A program made the position numbers and the translations under genes. From Aquimarina longa SW024 (GTDB taxonomy: Bacteria; Bacteroidota; Bacteroidia; Flavobacteriales; Flavobacteriaceae), in the NCBI RefSeq assembly GCF_001401755.1, contig NZ_KQ474099.1:615692-679691 (forward strand): a DNA stretch of 64,000 nucleotides. The letters run 5' to 3'. Below the pieces are notes generated by a model that worked only from the letters and a program-made list of their open reading frames with translations, was not told the origin of the DNA and did not search any database. Positions 3,450 through 12,991 of this stretch are shown here, in pieces; position 1 is the first letter of the stretch, and the number at the start of each line of letters is the position of its first letter.

Positions 3450-5039
3450 TTACTGAGCTATGGCAACTGCTCCGTAATTTTCTTCTAGATCTTCTATAAA
3501 AAAGATAAGGTCTGATCGCTTGTATTCTTTGGGGTAGAATTTGCCATTAATTAAGATTTCTGGGGTAAAATTGATAGCATTATTTTTACACCAAGTATTT
3601 TCTTTTTCTAATACCGATATAAACCTTTCTTTATCAGTGCATTCTCTCCATGTCTTTAACCAATGATCAGGCTTACCGTTCTCATAGATTTCTGTCATAG
3701 CTTGTAGACATTCTTTTGCTCCTTTTTGAGAATAGATTTCTAACATTCTACAGGTTATTTTTACCACATTACTATCTTCATCTTCTGTATTTATATTAAA
3801 TCGTATGATAATCTTCACTTTGCCCTTGTATTTATGTAGAATTTCATCTACCTGCTGATGCACCGGTTTACAGTGTCCGCAAAATGGGTTAGTCACTATC
3901 ACGATTTCTAAATTCGATACTGGATTACCAAAAACAATCTCTTGGTTTTCATCAATTATAGTATCTATCTGATGCGATTTATTTAACATCCCTTCGAACA
4001 AGACAAAGTTTCTTTTAAATTTAATTGCTTCTATTTTATCTTTACGTAATGTTGTTATCTCTAAGATAAGTGGTTTAATAAAGCTCCATAATAGCCATAT
4101 ACTGACTACTATTATTCCTAAAACCACAAAATCAACAAGTACAAAATTGGTAATATACATATCTGTTATTACAGAAATCAATGCTTGTAACCATAAGACT
4201 CCTATAATACTTAAACATAATAAGCACCATTTTTTCACTACGATATATTGATAGTATAACGAGTATAGTGTTATTGGGATAGTCAGTAAACTTATTGAGT
4301 AAGACAATACTGGATTAAGTATCTGGATAAAAGTTAGGGTTACTAATACCGAAAAATATAGCATACTAAAATCGCTTAACTTATATCCTTTAATAATTTC
4401 TGCTCCTTTTGAGCTTAACACAGCATCACAATCTTTCTGATCATCTGTTTCTGAGCAAAACGCATCTCCAATTGAGGTTTGCAATCCTAACTCTTGTTTT
4501 ACAATAGCAATACTTACTACAACTCCTATTATAGATAATACGAGATGACAAATACTAAAAACAGAATCTGTAGTTTTAAAAAGTAAGAAAGCAACAAACA
4601 ATCCTAATATTCCAAAAGCAATATATTTCCTTTTTGAATTTGATTCTAATAAGGATTGGTTATTTCCTTGTTTCTCTACAGCAACGATGATTCCTGTAAA
4701 TTTTTTCAAAAACTCATCCTCAGACAGTATCTGTTTTTTATCTGTTGTAGTATAAACAAGATAAGCGCTCTGCTTTTTTTCAACCACCACTAAGTCTTGT
4801 TTTTCTGACTCTTGTATCTGCGCAATAAAGTGATTTGGTAATTGCTGTAGTGTTGCCGAATCTATAGAAACTTTGGCTGCCACATTTTCTATACTAAAAT
4901 GGTCTAACACCCCCGTTATTGCATGTAGACTAGGGTAAGATGGATGGCTTTGAATTTGAAATTCGAGCTCTGTTCTATCAAAGTAAATTTTATTTCTTTT
5001 GAGTAATTTCTGTACTAAGTCTGTTAATGAAGGCTTCAA
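3450..5039 (-). CDS. C39-like / VKOR / thioredoxin-fold membrane protein
   Basis: The 529-residue protein has three parts. Residues 1-125 resemble a C39 peptidase domain (HPSYPSLHAITGVLDHF, then LPNHFIAQI), but no catalytic Cys is seen near the start and the usual His is not recognisable, so it may bind rather than cut leaders. Residues 135-330 form a multi-span membrane VKOR-like region with FCSETDDQKDC and the redox pair C272-LL-C275. Residues 350-529 are a thioredoxin-fold domain with C387-GH-C390. VKOR-thioredoxin fusions make disulfides outside the cytoplasm. Sitting just upstream of two Cys-rich leader peptides, it probably oxidises them during maturation. The domains are confident; the substrate is inferred from context. 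Confidence 0.85.
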   Translation of the reverse strand: MKPSLTDLVQKLLKRNKIYFDRTELEFQIQSHPSYPSLHAITGVLDHFSIENVAAKVSIDSATLQQLPNHFIAQIQESEKQDLVVVEKKQSAYLVYTTTDKKQILSEDEFLKKFTGIIVAVEKQGNNQSLLESNSKRKYIAFGILGLFVAFLLFKTTDSVFSICHLVLSIIGVVVSIAIVKQELGLQTSIGDAFCSETDDQKDCDAVLSSKGAEIIKGYKLSDFSMLYFSVLVTLTFIQILNPVLSYSISLLTIPITLYSLYYQYIVVKKWCLLCLSIIGVLWLQALISVITDMYITNFVLVDFVVLGIIVVSIWLLWSFIKPLILEITTLRKDKIEAIKFKRNFVLFEGMLNKSHQIDTIIDENQEIVFGNPVSNLEIVIVTNPFCGHCKPVHQQVDEILHKYKGKVKIIIRFNINTEDEDSNVVKITCRMLEIYSQKGAKECLQAMTEIYENGKPDHWLKTWRECTDKERFISVLEKENTWCKNNAINFTPEILINGKFYPKEYKRSDLIFFIEDLEENYGAVAIAQ

Positions 5040-5580: not shown

Positions 5581-8400
5581 ATGCTATTCATCAAACAGTA
5601 CTTTATTTCTTTTATCATTTTACTCTTTACCAACATAGTAGGGTATACCCAAAATGGTATCATTTCTGGAGTTTTAGAATATGAAGACGGACCATTACCT
5701 GGTGCTAACATTATCGTTAAAGGAACATCTAATGGTGTTACTACTGATTTTGATGGTAAGTATAGTATAGAATGCAAGGTAGGCGATACACTACAGTTTA
5801 TATCCATAGGTATGACTCCCAAAGAAATTAAAGTAACAACAGAAATGTTTGGTAATCAAAAGCTAACTCCTTTTCATCAAACAAAACCAGTACATAAAAT
5901 CATAAGTAATGACTATCTACAAGCATTAAAAACAGTTATTGATTCTCTATCAACAACTCCAGAAATATCCAAAAATGGAGTATCATACAACAGTGATAAT
6001 GGCTATCTTGATATTGATAGAATTAAATACATTAAAGAAGATCATCAAAAAATTAAGATAACCTATTTCAATCCTGATATATATTATCGAATTAGATTTA
6101 ATAGTAGTGTTGGACTACAATTTGTAGATCGGCAAAAAACTCCCAAAACACAAAACACATATGCCCAAGGAAGACCTTTTAATGGCACAAATCAGTGGTT
6201 TGGCGCAGATAACAACGAGCTGTTTTCATATGGCCCTACAATTAATTCCCTAACCTTTGATGGCTCTAACTACTCATATGACACTAATGGAAGGTTAATC
6301 AATGGAGTTTCTAGGGATCGTACATTACCGTATAACAACCAACTATTCGAGCCTAGCTTAATCCTATCCAATACGTTAAACTTAGCTGCTTTTAATTCTA
6401 AACACTCAATTGACTTAGATGCCAAAAGAAAAACTCAGGAGGACATATTTCAGACCACAAAAAACAATACCACTAAGCTTGGCATTACTTACAAGTTTAA
6501 GAAAAAAATCACAGCCTTCTTTACATCTAATTTCAAAACTAACAATCAACCAAATACAAACGGTTTTCTTACTAATGTTTTACTTGCATCTTATGTAACT
6601 CCTGTTACATTTCAGAATAATCAAGGGTATATAACAAACAACACTGCACAACGTAGTTTTAGCCCTACTCGATTTAACAACCCCTTTTGGCTATTACACC
6701 TTAATCAAAACAAAAACTCTTCGACATCAACTACCATAGGCGCTAAAAGCAAATTTAAAACCGATAAACACTTAAATATTCACTCTTTTTTAAGCTTCAA
6801 CAAACAAAAAAACAAGCTTAATTTTGCACTACCAATACATACTGTTGGTTTTGAAAATGGCTATGTTAGTAGAAAATACTTCTCTGAGTACACTCTCCAC
6901 ACTGATATCGGAGTAAACTATCAATTTTGGAGTGATAATTTCTCGTTAATTAAGGTCAACTCATCTCTAAAAAACAAAAACACATCACTTAATTACAGCT
7001 TATCAGAATATGGCAATTTCTCAGATCTTAGTTTTAATCGTGCTATTGACAACACTTTAAATGATCATCATTTAAGAAACAATACTTTACGCATGTTAAA
7101 TGAAATAACATTTGACTTTGATGTAGGTTTTGATGCAGATCTAACACTTAGAAACAACTCAGTTACATCCTCTTTACAAGGTAATCAATTCTTCCTACCA
7201 TCAATATTAGCATATATGAACATATCACAACTATTAAGACATTCTGACTGGCTAGACAGGCTTTCAATTGCAATAGGTGTTTCTAAGGAAGCTAAAGGAA
7301 TTCCCTTATACTACAATAACTTAAGCCATAATAGCCTTACCATTACTCCTCTAGAGTCTCAATCATTATTAGCTAATAATGATTTGTTCAATTCTAAAGA
7401 GTTAGAATTTGAAAAGAGCACCACATTTGACATCGAAAATGCTATTGGTTTGTTTAATAATCGTATAGAAATAGGCTTAAATTATTATTATTCAAAAACA
7501 AAAGGGAGTATTTTTCCTATTCTTACCAATGGAACATTTAAACTTCAGAATAGTGCAACTATAAAAAACGAAGGAATAGAAGGTAGCTTAGAATTTCGTC
7601 TAAATGATGAGTGGAGAAACTTCCAATATCAACCTACTTTTCTTTTTTCTAAAAACAGATCAAAAGTTATAGAGCTCTCAGACAATAAAACTTCAATCCC
7701 CATTGCTGGATTCAAAACCATATCAAAAAACCTAATTGTTGGTGAACAAACAGGAGCAATTGTAGGTTCCGCATTCCTAAGAGATCCTAATGGCTCAATT
7801 GTAATTGATGACGACGGATATCCAATGGTAGATCCTGAACAGAAAATTATAGGAAATACAACTCCTGATTTTAATATCAGTATAAATAATAGCTTTAGGT
7901 TCGGAAAACTGAAATGCAATTTTTTGATCGATTATCAACAGGGTGGCGATGTATGGAATGGAACCAAAAATGTTTTAAATTACATGGGTAGATCACAAGA
8001 ATCTGCTCACCTAAGAAATACTAGGAATTTTATTTTCACTGGCGTCAATCAATCAGGAACACCAAACACCAAACGCGTTGATTTTGCAAATACAAGCCAA
8101 GATGTATCACTTAATAGATGGGTAAGATATGGTTATACCGGAGTAGACGAAGAGGCAATAGTCGATGGAACTTTTATAAATCTTAAATCTATTAGTATCT
8201 CATATGATACTAAAGGTAAAAATACATTTTTTAGACAATTAGAACTAAGTCTATACGCTAATAACCTATTCTCTTACACAAAAGAGAAAGGCATCTCTCC
8301 ATATTCTTCATTATTTGATTATTCTGCAGGTAAGGGGTTAGACTACTTCAATACTCCATTGATAAAAGAAATCGGTTTTAAGGTTAATATAAAAATATAA
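5581..8400 (+). CDS. SusC-like outer-membrane barrel lacking a plug domain
   Basis: The 939-residue protein has a signal peptide (1-22, ending GYTQ) and then a carboxypeptidase-regulatory-like domain (ISGVLEYEDGPLPGANIIVKGT, to about residue 85) as in SusC proteins. In place of the roughly 130-residue plug there is only a short linker (about 90-155) with none of the plug motifs (IRG, PLxxIDGxP, YGSxxxNGVxxITTK). From about 160 on it looks like a SusC barrel, ending in QGGDVWNGT and an aromatic-poor final strand GFKVNIKI. The next gene starts 5 bases later and encodes a protein with exactly such a plug, so the two probably act as one receptor. The substrate is unknown and no SusD partner is present. 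Confidence 0.8.
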   Translation: MLFIKQYFISFIILLFTNIVGYTQNGIISGVLEYEDGPLPGANIIVKGTSNGVTTDFDGKYSIECKVGDTLQFISIGMTPKEIKVTTEMFGNQKLTPFHQTKPVHKIISNDYLQALKTVIDSLSTTPEISKNGVSYNSDNGYLDIDRIKYIKEDHQKIKITYFNPDIYYRIRFNSSVGLQFVDRQKTPKTQNTYAQGRPFNGTNQWFGADNNELFSYGPTINSLTFDGSNYSYDTNGRLINGVSRDRTLPYNNQLFEPSLILSNTLNLAAFNSKHSIDLDAKRKTQEDIFQTTKNNTTKLGITYKFKKKITAFFTSNFKTNNQPNTNGFLTNVLLASYVTPVTFQNNQGYITNNTAQRSFSPTRFNNPFWLLHLNQNKNSSTSTTIGAKSKFKTDKHLNIHSFLSFNKQKNKLNFALPIHTVGFENGYVSRKYFSEYTLHTDIGVNYQFWSDNFSLIKVNSSLKNKNTSLNYSLSEYGNFSDLSFNRAIDNTLNDHHLRNNTLRMLNEITFDFDVGFDADLTLRNNSVTSSLQGNQFFLPSILAYMNISQLLRHSDWLDRLSIAIGVSKEAKGIPLYYNNLSHNSLTITPLESQSLLANNDLFNSKELEFEKSTTFDIENAIGLFNNRIEIGLNYYYSKTKGSIFPILTNGTFKLQNSATIKNEGIEGSLEFRLNDEWRNFQYQPTFLFSKNRSKVIELSDNKTSIPIAGFKTISKNLIVGEQTGAIVGSAFLRDPNGSIVIDDDGYPMVDPEQKIIGNTTPDFNISINNSFRFGKLKCNFLIDYQQGGDVWNGTKNVLNYMGRSQESAHLRNTRNFIFTGVNQSGTPNTKRVDFANTSQDVSLNRWVRYGYTGVDEEAIVDGTFINLKSISISYDTKGKNTFFRQLELSLYANNLFSYTKEKGISPYSSLFDYSAGKGLDYFNTPLIKEIGFKVNIKI

Positions 8401-8404
8401 GACT

Positions 8405-11400
8405 ATGCATATTAGAACAATCATATTATCTATTCTAACGCTACTATCACTATCATTCAATAGCATAGAATTTAGATCTAATAATCATATTGAAAAAATA
8501 TACACCCAGACAGATAGATCTTTATATTTTCCTGGAGAAACAATTTGGTTTAAATCATACATTACCAATACCGAAAACAAAATTTCTACACTGAGTGAGG
8601 TAATGCATGCGGAGCTACTATCTCCAAAAGGTACTGTTGTCAATGCCATAAAGCTATCCATTAATCAAGGATACGCTTACGGAGATTTTGAAATTGATAA
8701 TGATTGGGTTGGTGGTATCTATAAGGTAAGAATGTATACCCATTGGATGAAAAACTTTAGCACCGATTGTTATTTCGAAAAAGAAATTGTAGTTCAGAAA
8801 GTAATTAGTCCTAACCTATTAATGAAACTAGAGTTCGAAAAGAAAGCATATGGAAGTGGATCAGAAGTCACTGCTCATTTTGAAGCTAAAAACTTAAAAA
8901 ACATTCCTTTATCAAATCAAGAAATTAAATACGAAGTTAATATCAAAGGAGAAAAGTTTCTCTCAGAAACCATCAACACTAATGCTAAAGGAAAGCAAGA
9001 CATCACATTTAAACTGCCTGATCATCTTACAACAACCGATGTGATTCTAAACGTATTAGTGCCGCATAAAGGCTCTAGAGAATCAATTTCTAGAAGTGTT
9101 CCTATAACATTAAATACTATCGACTTGCAGTTTTTTCCAGAAAGCGGTACTGCTATTATCGGAACCGAGAATACAATTGCTTTTAAAGCAGTCAACAAAT
9201 TTGGAAAACCTGCTGATATTAGTGGAGAGATTGTAAATGAAAAAGGAGAAATCATCAAAACCTTCGACAGTTATCACGATGGCATGGGAAGTTTTATCTT
9301 TACCCCTACTTCAGAAAAATATTCTGCTCGGATCACAGCACCCTTTAAATCTGATTCATTAATTCCCTTACCTTCAATTGATAAAATTGGGACAAAATTT
9401 AGCCTTAAAAAGAAAAAAAACACCTATCTGATTGATATTTTTTCCTCCAATACTAATATCACAAAACTATCTGTATCCAATTCGTATAACGAAATATTTA
9501 CTAAGAAAGTAACATTATCTAATCATAAAGCCACAATCAGACTCAATAAAAAAGTTTTACCTACAGGAATTATCAAAATTGCATTGCATGATGTACATAA
9601 TACCATAATAGCAGAACGATTAGCCTTTGTAAATAAATCAAATCAACTGAATATTGATATTTCACTCGATAAAGAGCAGTATGAAACTCGCGAAAAAGTT
9701 ACTGTAAAAATCAAAACTACAGATCAATCCAACACTCCTATTCCTTCAAATATATCTCTTAGTATTGTTGACAATAAACTGGTCTCATTTGCAGATGACA
9801 AACAAGACAATATATCCTCATACCTTCTAATGTCATCTGAATTAAAAGGTAAAATTCATAAACCATCGTTTTACTTTGATCCAAACGAGAATAAAGCAGA
9901 AATTGCTTTAGACTACGTAATGTTAACTCATGGTTGGAGAAAATACATAAAGAATACCATAACACTACAGAACGCTATTTTTCCACCCGATACACAAGCA
10001 ACTCAATACGGAAAAATTGTTGACAAAAACAACATCCCAACACAATCTCATATCCTGATTTTTGATCAAAACTCAGAGAAGGTTACAAAATTTGAGACTA
10101 ATGATAAAGGAGAGTTTTCTTTTAAAATAAACCGTAATGGTAACCTAGTAGTACTTGCTTATACTGATACTGGTAAAAAGCTATACATTCAGAAAACAAA
10201 GTTTATACATAGCACATCAAATAAAGATGAACAAAAAGCCTATGACCAAACAAAAAAGCTAGATTTTAAACAATTAGACATAAAAAAACCACTACAAAAA
10301 ACAGTTAAAGAAAAAGCAATAATATCTGACGAAATAGAAATCCAACTAAGTGATGATGATGCTAATCTAGAGGAGGTAATCATCACCAGTTATGGATTAC
10401 AAAAAAGAAAAATTCTTTCAGGAGCAGTGGCTACTTTGGTCAATAATACTACTATCTCCACAATGCGTATTGATAATATTGCGCAATTACTACAAGGAAG
10501 AGTTTCTGGCATCACCACTACCAATACTCCCAATCTATACGGAAACAGCTCTAATATAGCTATCAGAGGAGCAAATTCTATAACTGGGAGTTCTCAACCT
10601 CTACTTATAATAGACGGTATTCCACTTGATCTAAACGAAAAAAATGGAGCCACTTTGCACAATATAGAATCCTCTGAAGTCGAAAAAATTCATGTATTAA
10701 AAGGTGCAGCAGCAGCTTCTTTATACGGCTCTAATGGCATTAATGGAGTTGTACTCATTACCACAAAAAACCAAAATTTCAATCATTTTTATGATAGTAA
10801 ATCATTGAACAACAAAAAATATAAAAACTATACCGCACAAACATTCTATTATCATAATAAGATCAACACCCACACTAGCAAAAAGTTTTATATCCCCATA
10901 TACAATAGCAAAGAATTACCTTTAGATAGAAATGATTTTAGACAAACTATCTATTGGAATCCTGTAATCCAAACAGATAAAAACGGAGAAGCCTCTTTCG
11001 AATATTATAACTCCGATGCAATAACCTCATTTATTATTACCGCTGAAGGTACTGGTTATAATGGATTAGTTGGAAGAAAAGAACTGAAATATGCTACAAA
11101 AAAATTACTCCATATTGATTTAAAAACACCAAACTATATGGCTCTTAATGACACTATACAATTATCAATTGTAGCCTCTAACGAATCTAACACTCTAATA
11201 AGCACAGCACTTAACATAGACCTCCCAGAGGAATTAAAATTAATCAGTAATTTTAAAAATGATAGCCTACATATAGCACCTAATTCTAATCAAACCAAAA
11301 CAATTACAGTAGTTCCCATAAAAAAATCTCAAAACACTACCATAAAAATCAGTGCACATAGTAATAACTATACTGACTACATTGATAAAAACACTATCAT

Positions 11401-12991
11401 TATTAGTCCTTACTTCCCTACTCAAACCTCTATCTCTGGGCACACCAACAATTCTTATCGATTACATATCAACAATCTAGTTGATGGAAGTTTAAAAGCT
11501 GATTTCTCTATCTATACAGATATTGTTGGAGATGTGATGGATGGTATTGAATCGTTACTAAGACAACCATCCGGATGTTTTGAGCAAGTTTCATCAAGTA
11601 CCTATCCCAATATTTTGGTTCTAAAATACCTTAAAGAAACAGGAAAAAGCAATCCTGATATAGAAAATAGAGCTATGGATTTTATCAAAACAGGATACAA
11701 AAAACTTGCTGCTTATGAAACCTCTGAAGATGGTTTTGAATGGTACGGGCACACCCCCCCGCATGAAGCTCTATCAGCATATGGACTTATGGAATTTATA
11801 GAAATGAAAGAGGTCTACAACAAAGTAAGTGAACCGATGATCAACAGAACGATTAACTACCTCCTAAGTAGAAAAGATGGAAAAGGGGGATTTAAACAAA
11901 ATAAAGGAAAATATGGATTCTCTGCCGCTCCCGAACATATCAACAACGCCTATATAGTATACGCCATTACAGAATCCGGCACAAAAGTAGCTATTGAAGA
12001 AGAGTACAACCACTCTTATAATGAAGCTCTAGAAAGCAAAGACTCTTATAGAATGGCATTGATGGCATGTGCCAGTTGGAACTTAAACAAAACCGAGAAT
12101 GCTCGCAAGCTAATGGATGAAATCAAAAAGAATATTGAAGAATATGGATTCCAAAAACTACCTACTGAACATACCATTACGCGTTCATATGGTAATGCTA
12201 AAGAAATTGAAACTACTGCTTTTACCATTTTAGCATTACTAAAACAAGGTAATTCTGAATACATCATTAGCCAAGGAATAGAATTTATGTTATCCAAAAG
12301 AAAATACAATCGTTTTGGTTCTACTCAATCTACCTCTATGGCTCTAAAAGCATTAATTGAATATACCAAAACTCAAAAACAAAAAACAATACCTCCTAAT
12401 AGCATTATTGAATTAGACATAAATGGTAAAACAATACAAACTGAGCTAAAGGTAAATAACGAAGGAAAAATAGTTCTCAAAAATATAGAACAATATATCT
12501 CAGAAGGACAACAACATATAGAAGTGCGTTTTTCTAATGCTGATACTACATTTCCATATCTATTAAATATAACATGGGATAGCACTATTCCTAGTTCTTC
12601 TGCCAAATGCAAGCTAGAATTAAAAACCGAAATCACAGATGCGGTTCATAGTGTAGGCGAAAATTTTAGAATGAACATTAGCGTACACAACAAAACCAAT
12701 CAACCCCTACCAATGACTACAGCCATTATAGGAATTCCATCAGGAACTGCTGCTCAGCCATGGCAATTAAAAGAAATCTTAGAACAATATAAGGCAGATT
12801 ATTTTGAAGTTTTTGACAACTACCTAGTCTTCTACTGGAAAGAATTTGGAGCATCCGAAGTAAAACAAATTCAATTAGATCTAAAAGCAGAAATCTCAGG
12901 GAGCTATCAAGCACCTGCAAGCACTGTTTATTTATATTACACTGATGAAAACAAACATTGGATAACAGGAAACAAAGTGATTATTAATTAA
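8405..12991 (+). CDS. Alpha-2-macroglobulin-like protein with inserted TonB plug domain
   Basis: The 1528-residue exported protein has a signal peptide without lipobox, an MG2-type domain (KIYTQTDRSLYFPGETIWF) and further MG-like domains to about 520. A carboxypeptidase-regulatory-like region (about 530-595) is followed by a complete SusC-type plug (about 656-788: EEVIITSYG, LLQGRVSGI, IAIRGANS, PLLIIDGIPLD, ASLYGSNGINGVVLITTK). The A2M part then resumes with an intact thioester motif GCFEQ (C1058, E1060, Q1061) in a helical thioester domain and a C-terminal receptor-like domain. A2M proteins trap proteases by covalent thioester capture. The plug probably seats in the plugless barrel encoded 4 bases upstream, tying a protease trap or substrate catcher to TonB-driven uptake. 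The domains are clear; the joint function is inference. Confidence 0.85.
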   Translation: MHIRTIILSILTLLSLSFNSIEFRSNNHIEKIYTQTDRSLYFPGETIWFKSYITNTENKISTLSEVMHAELLSPKGTVVNAIKLSINQGYAYGDFEIDNDWVGGIYKVRMYTHWMKNFSTDCYFEKEIVVQKVISPNLLMKLEFEKKAYGSGSEVTAHFEAKNLKNIPLSNQEIKYEVNIKGEKFLSETINTNAKGKQDITFKLPDHLTTTDVILNVLVPHKGSRESISRSVPITLNTIDLQFFPESGTAIIGTENTIAFKAVNKFGKPADISGEIVNEKGEIIKTFDSYHDGMGSFIFTPTSEKYSARITAPFKSDSLIPLPSIDKIGTKFSLKKKKNTYLIDIFSSNTNITKLSVSNSYNEIFTKKVTLSNHKATIRLNKKVLPTGIIKIALHDVHNTIIAERLAFVNKSNQLNIDISLDKEQYETREKVTVKIKTTDQSNTPIPSNISLSIVDNKLVSFADDKQDNISSYLLMSSELKGKIHKPSFYFDPNENKAEIALDYVMLTHGWRKYIKNTITLQNAIFPPDTQATQYGKIVDKNNIPTQSHILIFDQNSEKVTKFETNDKGEFSFKINRNGNLVVLAYTDTGKKLYIQKTKFIHSTSNKDEQKAYDQTKKLDFKQLDIKKPLQKTVKEKAIISDEIEIQLSDDDANLEEVIITSYGLQKRKILSGAVATLVNNTTISTMRIDNIAQLLQGRVSGITTTNTPNLYGNSSNIAIRGANSITGSSQPLLIIDGIPLDLNEKNGATLHNIESSEVEKIHVLKGAAAASLYGSNGINGVVLITTKNQNFNHFYDSKSLNNKKYKNYTAQTFYYHNKINTHTSKKFYIPIYNSKELPLDRNDFRQTIYWNPVIQTDKNGEASFEYYNSDAITSFIITAEGTGYNGLVGRKELKYATKKLLHIDLKTPNYMALNDTIQLSIVASNESNTLISTALNIDLPEELKLISNFKNDSLHIAPNSNQTKTITVVPIKKSQNTTIKISAHSNNYTDYIDKNTIIISPYFPTQTSISGHTNNSYRLHINNLVDGSLKADFSIYTDIVGDVMDGIESLLRQPSGCFEQVSSSTYPNILVLKYLKETGKSNPDIENRAMDFIKTGYKKLAAYETSEDGFEWYGHTPPHEALSAYGLMEFIEMKEVYNKVSEPMINRTINYLLSRKDGKGGFKQNKGKYGFSAAPEHINNAYIVYAITESGTKVAIEEEYNHSYNEALESKDSYRMALMACASWNLNKTENARKLMDEIKKNIEEYGFQKLPTEHTITRSYGNAKEIETTAFTILALLKQGNSEYIISQGIEFMLSKRKYNRFGSTQSTSMALKALIEYTKTQKQKTIPPNSIIELDINGKTIQTELKVNNEGKIVLKNIEQYISEGQQHIEVRFSNADTTFPYLLNITWDSTIPSSSAKCKLELKTEITDAVHSVGENFRMNISVHNKTNQPLPMTTAIIGIPSGTAAQPWQLKEILEQYKADYFEVFDNYLVFYWKEFGASEVKQIQLDLKAEISGSYQAPASTVYLYYTDENKHWITGNKVIIN

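Follow-up and report, generated by a model that had tools for sequence, protein, structure and literature searches.

What closes a SusC-type barrel whose own gene encodes no plug? The question arises in a 64,000-nucleotide stretch of the Aquimarina longa SW024 genome (the window, in which all coordinates below are positions unless a locus is named), where two forward open reading frames occupy 5581–12991 with 4 bases between them. The first encodes the barrel and the second a thioester protein of the alpha-2-macroglobulin (A2M) type that carries a SusC-type plug. To our knowledge, TonB-dependent transporters are known as single chains, with the plug tied to the barrel. We propose that these two products probably form a split TonB-dependent transporter, in which the A2M plug would gate the barrel, TonB would pull on it and the thioester would capture what enters.

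5581..8400, forward: plugless SusC-type barrel gene, 939 residues (Pfam, TIGRFAM, plug model, AlphaFold2, structural alignment)
8405..12991, forward: A2M-type thioester protein bearing the plug, 1528 residues (Pfam, TIGRFAM, alignments, predicted model)

The first product is a SusC-type barrel without a detectable plug or Ton box. Pfam Plug gave no match to it at E ≤ 1, and our own hidden Markov model (HMM) of the plug scored it at 0.1 bits, against at most 5.9 bits for shuffles of the same protein (n = 200) and 161.5 bits for the A2M protein. Across all six frames of the window the plug HMM matched the A2M's plug alone, which ruled out a plug concealed in another reading frame. The SusC/RagA model TIGR04056 aligned from its position 212 on, that is over the barrel part, and under its whole-protein cut-off.

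5665..5847, forward: CarboxypepD_reg-like domain of the barrel protein, residues 29–89 (Pfam PF13715, CarbopepD_reg_2, E 2e-12)
5851..6021, forward: predicted disordered segment, residues 91–147, at the place of the SusC Ton box and plug (model confidence below 50)
6079..8397, forward: beta-barrel domain, residues 167–939 (VIA-align to SusC 5t3r)

An AlphaFold2 model of the barrel protein (12 sequences) had a mean predicted local distance difference test score (pLDDT) of 69.6 and a predicted template-modelling score of 0.60, with residues 91–147 below pLDDT 50 and so predicted to be disordered. VIA-align superposed model residues 169–939 on SusC 5t3r (Z 24.4, root-mean-square deviation 5.2, 631 residues aligned). 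Every one of the 50 structural matches listed was a TonB-dependent transporter, with alignments starting at model residue 164–171; the alignment with BtuB opened at BtuB residue 134, which we take to lie just past the plug. TIGR04056 and VIA-align agree on the 22-strand SusC/RagA barrel fold, an assignment made from the overall alignments and not from a count of individual strands, and the plug that SusC and RagA hold within the barrel polypeptide is here encoded by the next gene. A preliminary description of this DNA had called the barrel free of plug motifs, and Pfam, the coverage of TIGR04056, the plug HMM and the AlphaFold2 model bear this out; HMM, six-frame scan and predicted structure revealed no hidden plug in it either. 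What had been described as its SusC N-terminal domain is indeed present, although it belongs to the general CarboxypepD_reg type, of which a second copy, weakly matched, stands ahead of the plug in the A2M protein.

8495..8740, forward: MG2 domain, residues 31–112 (Pfam PF01835)
9506..9781, forward: match to the A2M bait-region domain, residues 368–459, upstream of the insert (Pfam PF07703)
10010..10189, forward: second CarboxypepD_reg-like domain, residues 536–595, start of the insert (weak Pfam match below cut-off, E 0.0095)
10202..10366, forward: variable, predicted disordered linker ahead of the Ton box (alignment; pLDDT about 25–41)
10367..10396, forward: Ton box LEEVIITSYG, residues 655–664 (sequence)
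10430..10768, forward: SusC-type plug including the TIGR04057 signature, residues 676–788 (Pfam, TIGRFAM, plug HMM)
10946..11206, forward: A2M-family domain past the insert, residues 848–934 (Pfam PF00207; aligns with complement C3 from the MG6 alpha part on)
11504..12364, forward: thioester domain (TED), residues 1034–1320 (Pfam PF07678, E 3.5e-30)
11573..11587, forward: thioester motif GCFEQ, residues 1057–1061 (sequence)

The second product belongs to the A2M family by its macroglobulin (MG) domains and its TED with a CxEQ motif (Pfam MG2, A2M and TED), and the motif itself, GCFEQ, was invariant in 12/12 and 71/71 aligned sequences. Pfam Plug matched residues 676–782 (E 2.8e-16), TIGR04057 (SusC signature) matched residues 758–788, and a Ton box stands N-terminal to the plug, on the A2M protein and not on the barrel. 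The open reading frames, Pfam and TIGR04057 all agree with the earlier statement that an A2M protein with a SusC-type plug and GCFEQ follows the barrel gene 4 bases on. No lipobox match was found in this protein. The insert looks like an entire SusC N-terminal cassette, made up of CarboxypepD-like domain, linker, Ton box and plug; the weakly matched CarboxypepD_reg-like domain was modelled with ten-residue blocks at pLDDT 76–91.

The site of the insert was located by two alignments. In the profile alignment, A2M positions from 833 paired with TEP1 from 602, and positions from 852 on with C3 starting near 760. A predicted model of residues 345–1528 (mean pLDDT 77.8) could be aligned with human C3 starting at model residue 499 (protein residue 843), opposite C3 743, a region that we take to lie just past the anaphylatoxin and alpha-prime N-terminus, in the second part of MG6. 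Read against this C3 layout, the alignments place the insert at the bait-region/anaphylatoxin position within MG6. The plug does precede the TED, as described earlier, though it sits inside MG6 at that position and not simply between the MG domains and the TED. In Foldseek comparisons, native A2M-family structures gave higher TM-scores with the predicted model than activated ones did (for example, TMq 0.45 to 7q5z against 0.22 to 7q60).

The division of parts between the two proteins recurred in their homologues. A Ton-box pattern was found in 73/90 plug-bearing A2Ms (residues 560–760 scanned, duplicates included) and 14/20 ordinary SusC controls, but in 0/84 homologous barrels (residues 20–220 scanned).

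We surveyed the pairing in 299 genomes of the organism's own family, the Flavobacteriaceae, 25 of which were matched by the A2M query at E ≤ 1e-60. The long plug form accounted for 13 of the 25, the window's own genome included, and shorter MG proteins without a TED for the remaining 12; in one of the 13 (G079) the gene is cut at a contig end ahead of the thioester domain. A plugless barrel was the next gene upstream in all 13 plug-A2M loci, that of the window among them. A scan of wider genome contigs, which is biased towards close relatives because the best 80 of 574 were retained, found the barrel upstream in 75 of the 76 loci readable on that side. Distant members added from a class-wide sample (395 genomes) and two order samples (22 and 198 genomes) gave three further readable plug-A2Ms, of which L193 and L225 had the barrel, in L225 about 0.36 kb upstream, and L243 did not. 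Pooled, with four duplicates removed, the samples hold about 88 readable loci with a plug-bearing A2M, and in 86 of them a plugless barrel lay upstream. Full-length plug-A2Ms lacking it were rare, namely L132 and L243.

These totals count as barrel-bearing L114, where the barrel lies 1.2 kb upstream, L107, where the contig edge spares just the C-terminus of the barrel, and L028, in which contig ends truncate the two genes. They leave out L078, L087, L098 and L134, whose contigs start inside the A2M gene, and L224 and L227, with 205 and 75 bases upstream; L070, L084, L077, L093 and L226 (the same as L125) were removed as duplicates. The barrel and A2M genes were 2–6 bases apart in 59/84 pairs, and the pair recurs in Flavobacteriaceae, Chitinophagaceae and other Bacteroidota. 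A sequencing frameshift cutting one gene in two was ruled out because the same barrel–A2M order recurs across dozens of genomes.

The converse search started from the barrel. At E ≤ 1e-80, plugless barrels in the 299 family genomes were confined to the 13 with a plug-A2M, so that the co-occurrence suggested in the preliminary description was found; matches began at residue 1–7 in 11 of the 13 and were partial in G079 and G206. Eight other matches in the sample did not start before residue 154; they lie in frames of 1060–1172 residues and look like ordinary SusCs. In the class sample (E ≤ 1e-95), plugless barrels were found only in G000, G127 and G651, all with a plug-A2M.

Relatives without the SusC plug gave the opposite result. 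The class sample held a match at E ≤ 1e-100 in 87/395 genomes; a hand count over the rows listed put about 60 of these down as long A2Ms with a gap at the plug and 4 as plug-bearing, the rest being short MG proteins. The long plugless A2Ms had GCFEQ in all whose sequence was inspected. No barrel match lay upstream of A2Ms without the SusC plug in any of 22 loci (17 in a first set, 5 in a second), each with at least 0.9 kb of sequence upstream; one of the 22, L190, has a non-SusC Plug with TonB_C. Outside this count, there was no barrel match in the 412, 686 and 444 bases upstream of L228, L234 and L237, nor at L229 (partial plug, 33 bits) or at L233 and L238, which have no upstream sequence. 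One genome, G758, has both forms: at L225 a plug-A2M with its barrel, and at L228 an A2M that lacks the plug and shows no barrel within the 412 bases available upstream.

Short MG proteins (820–975 residues, no thioester domain) had no adjacent barrel in 15/15 loci. The plug HMM matched 6 of these 15, also without an adjacent barrel; a barrel therefore cannot be predicted from the mere presence of a plug on an MG protein. At L053 (6996–14717, reverse strand) three MG proteins of 897, 825 and 845 residues, all lacking a thioester domain, stand in tandem, 6 bases apart, two of them with weak plug matches.

At the same MG6 site, a CarboxypepD domain together with a low-complexity linker is found in many of the relatives without the SusC plug. 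Pfam TonB_C was above cut-off there in L178, L188, L189 and L190, and an HMM made from these four also detected TonB_C in L235, L236, L237 and L238, eight in all; L177, L179 and L185 have the Ton-box-like LDEVVIVGNAQG or a close variant. From these motifs, this A2M branch appears to be tied in several ways to the TonB system at the trigger position. The window's own genome has four TonB_C matches above cut-off.

When the thioester halves (120 rows) were placed on a tree, 3 changes sufficed for the plug label, against 27.7 in shuffles. L132 and L149 (the gene of L243) grouped with 30 of the 31 rows lacking the SusC plug (support 94), the thirty-first, L191, being a long branch outside that group. 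A row titled Limnohabitans (Pseudomonadota), L119, grouped with Flavobacterium rows and probably comes from a mis-binned contig. For a mirror tree we used 77 pairs, excluding rows without a barrel as the next open reading frame and 8 near-duplicates. The partial rank correlation of plug divergence was 0.40 with the barrel, 0.12 with the TED and −0.22 with the MG domains; the plug–barrel value was equalled in 0/500 permutations, the barrel exceeded the TED in 296/300 subsamples, and the value was 0.30 in the Flavobacteriaceae-dominated cluster (44). The divergence of the plug tracks that of the barrel more than that of the rest of its own polypeptide.

A few other genes were seen at these loci. 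In the window, a protein on the reverse strand at 3450–5039, divergent from the split-receptor genes, joins peptidase C39-like, VKOR and thioredoxin domains. Just upstream of a split barrel, L044:3623–4093 (forward strand) encodes 156 residues that consist of two repeats, both similar to the latter half of a SusC plug, two genes past a gene that resembles a sigma factor by eye. A candidate natural fusion at G651:C58 (L209) turned out to be a SusC of 1623 residues (L209:2408–7279, reverse strand) with VIT and VWA domains between its CarboxypepD domain and plug; its genome also holds a split pair. A search for a conserved third gene beside the pair found none: no neighbour family occurred in more than 16/81 loci, the commonest doing so at varying places.

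How might such a pair work? The two ends of a TonB-receptor plug are both on the periplasmic side, where TonB acts. We suggest that the A2M plug would seat in the barrel from below and, since plug ends and TonB action are periplasmic, that the A2M body would hang beneath the pore. TonB, pulling the Ton box, would move or extract a plug that is not tethered to the barrel wall, and the A2M would then meet whatever enters and capture it through its thioester, perhaps guarding against proteases or other proteins on their way in. The two-protein receptor proposed in the preliminary description is well supported by comparison (86 of about 88 loci against 0/22), while docking of the plug, like the TonB drive and the periplasmic side, is something that we infer; trapping as the A2M's job is the least certain part.

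Several observations weigh against a split transporter of this kind. The plug region of the A2M was modelled at low confidence in the absence of the barrel. L132 and L243 carry a SusC plug with no adjacent barrel, and the genome of L243 (G658, a draft of 1670 contigs) yielded no plugless barrel at E ≤ 1e-95. The mirror-tree signal was absent (−0.04) from the Chitinophaga-dominated cluster (21 pairs). The top plug–barrel covariation scores were equalled by about half of 20 within-clade shuffles (77 pairs), and covariation at the residue level was unspecific, because the mean with the barrel lay above every one of the 20 shuffles and so did the means with the TED and the MG domains. Measured against 20 SusCs, the distances of split plugs agreed only weakly with those of split barrels (rho 0.44, p 0.053), and the split plugs were not one group on their tree; an origin by fission of one SusC found no support, as the split barrels formed one side of a branch against the 20 SusCs and the split plugs did not. 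With no neighbour family in more than 16/81 loci, there is also no pointer to a substrate.

That last point would suit a pair that imports nutrients, taking up peptides or proteins with the A2M serving in the periplasm as a cargo receptor or a covalent cargo handler and not as a defence trap: no conserved neighbour points to defence, and the closest structures, SusC and RagA, are nutrient importers. We consider this unlikely, as an invariant thioester would be unusual in a reusable importer and no SusD-type partner was seen among the window's Pfam-scanned neighbours, although no search was aimed at SusD. It is improbable that the A2M plug also serves other receptors or docks beneath ordinary SusC barrels, with the neighbouring barrel a separate porin. 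Plug-A2Ms without a barrel (L132, L243), the barrel-less short MG proteins with plug matches in 6/15 loci and the TonB_C-bearing A2Ms, which suggest docking under receptors, would fit such a role, but it sits badly with the adjacency counts in A2Ms with and without the SusC plug and with zero orphan plugless barrels at E ≤ 1e-80 in 299 genomes. Two genes, one for a barrel partner, also resemble two-partner secretion, and the barrel could export or display the A2M, with the plug sealing the pore behind it; this seems very improbable to us, since the A2M retains a Ton box that TonB would reach in the periplasm, where the plug ends lie, and the barrel is SusC-like and not of a known exporter type. 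Open frames, tight spacing and recurrence across Bacteroidota contradict the idea that the two genes are neighbours by chance or the decaying remains of a receptor, which we judge exceedingly improbable.

The split transporter could be extended in two further ways. One addition, not an alternative to it, is that TonB engagement triggers the thioester, the pull on a Ton box at the bait position retracting a segment that holds the native A2M fold. The position of the insert, and the fact that relatives have TonB_C or a Ton-box-like motif there, make this possible, though doubtful; if true, it would be categorically new. Against it, Harwood et al. 2022 (PMC9352918) report that a lengthened bait region does not by itself trigger human A2M; the same paper names A2M triggering other than by proteolysis or reduction as a question to test, and a natural split pair would offer a test of it. 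More broadly, in a Bacteroidota A2M branch with TonB-system parts at the bait position (a Ton box with plug, or a TonB C-terminal domain), TonB-receptor activity may arm or fire the thioester trap, instead of or besides proteolysis, which we put forward tentatively; equally tentative is the suggestion that the window pair is the version in which such a trap also gates its own pore.

Whether a plug rearranges inside the barrel or leaves it is a long-standing question, and a natural split form, if it is one, would open plug and barrel to separate purification, mutation and tracking. Through it, a complement-like thioester protein would also be linked to transport across the outer membrane. Among the matches listed from open-access PubMed Central, whose coverage excludes preprints and most subscription papers, we found no plug-bearing A2M, plugless SusC or pairing of the two.

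Set beside known systems, the pair shares with SusC/RagA transporters (BT1763, BT2264, RagA) the barrel fold over model residues 167–939, and the plug, Ton box and SusC signature all exist, here on a partner protein. It differs in having barrel and plug as separate polypeptides and in that no neighbour family, and hence no SusD-like partner, recurs in more than 16/81 loci, SusD itself not having been searched for. With the bacterial A2Ms of E. coli (ECAM/YfhM) and Salmonella (SaA2M) the window protein has in common an MG array, a TED with CxEQ, the A2M fold and, presumably, a periplasmic location; unlike them it has a plug cassette at the bait position and no lipobox match, and its profile scores human A2M, CD109, TEP1 and C3 above ECAM. 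Complement C3, insect TEP1 and human A2M likewise hold an extra domain or bait segment within MG6 ahead of the thioester half, but theirs is an anaphylatoxin or bait and not a TonB-receptor plug.

The short Bacteroidota MG2 proteins (820–975 residues) resemble the window A2M in their MG domains and, in L194 and L195 though not L056, in a Pfam Plug match; they differ in lacking a TED and an adjacent plugless barrel (15/15 loci). For FhuA, a laboratory construct reportedly had cork and barrel expressed apart. The window pair resembles it in supplying a plug in trans to a TonB-receptor barrel and differs from it in that the FhuA construct is an artificial split of a single receptor.
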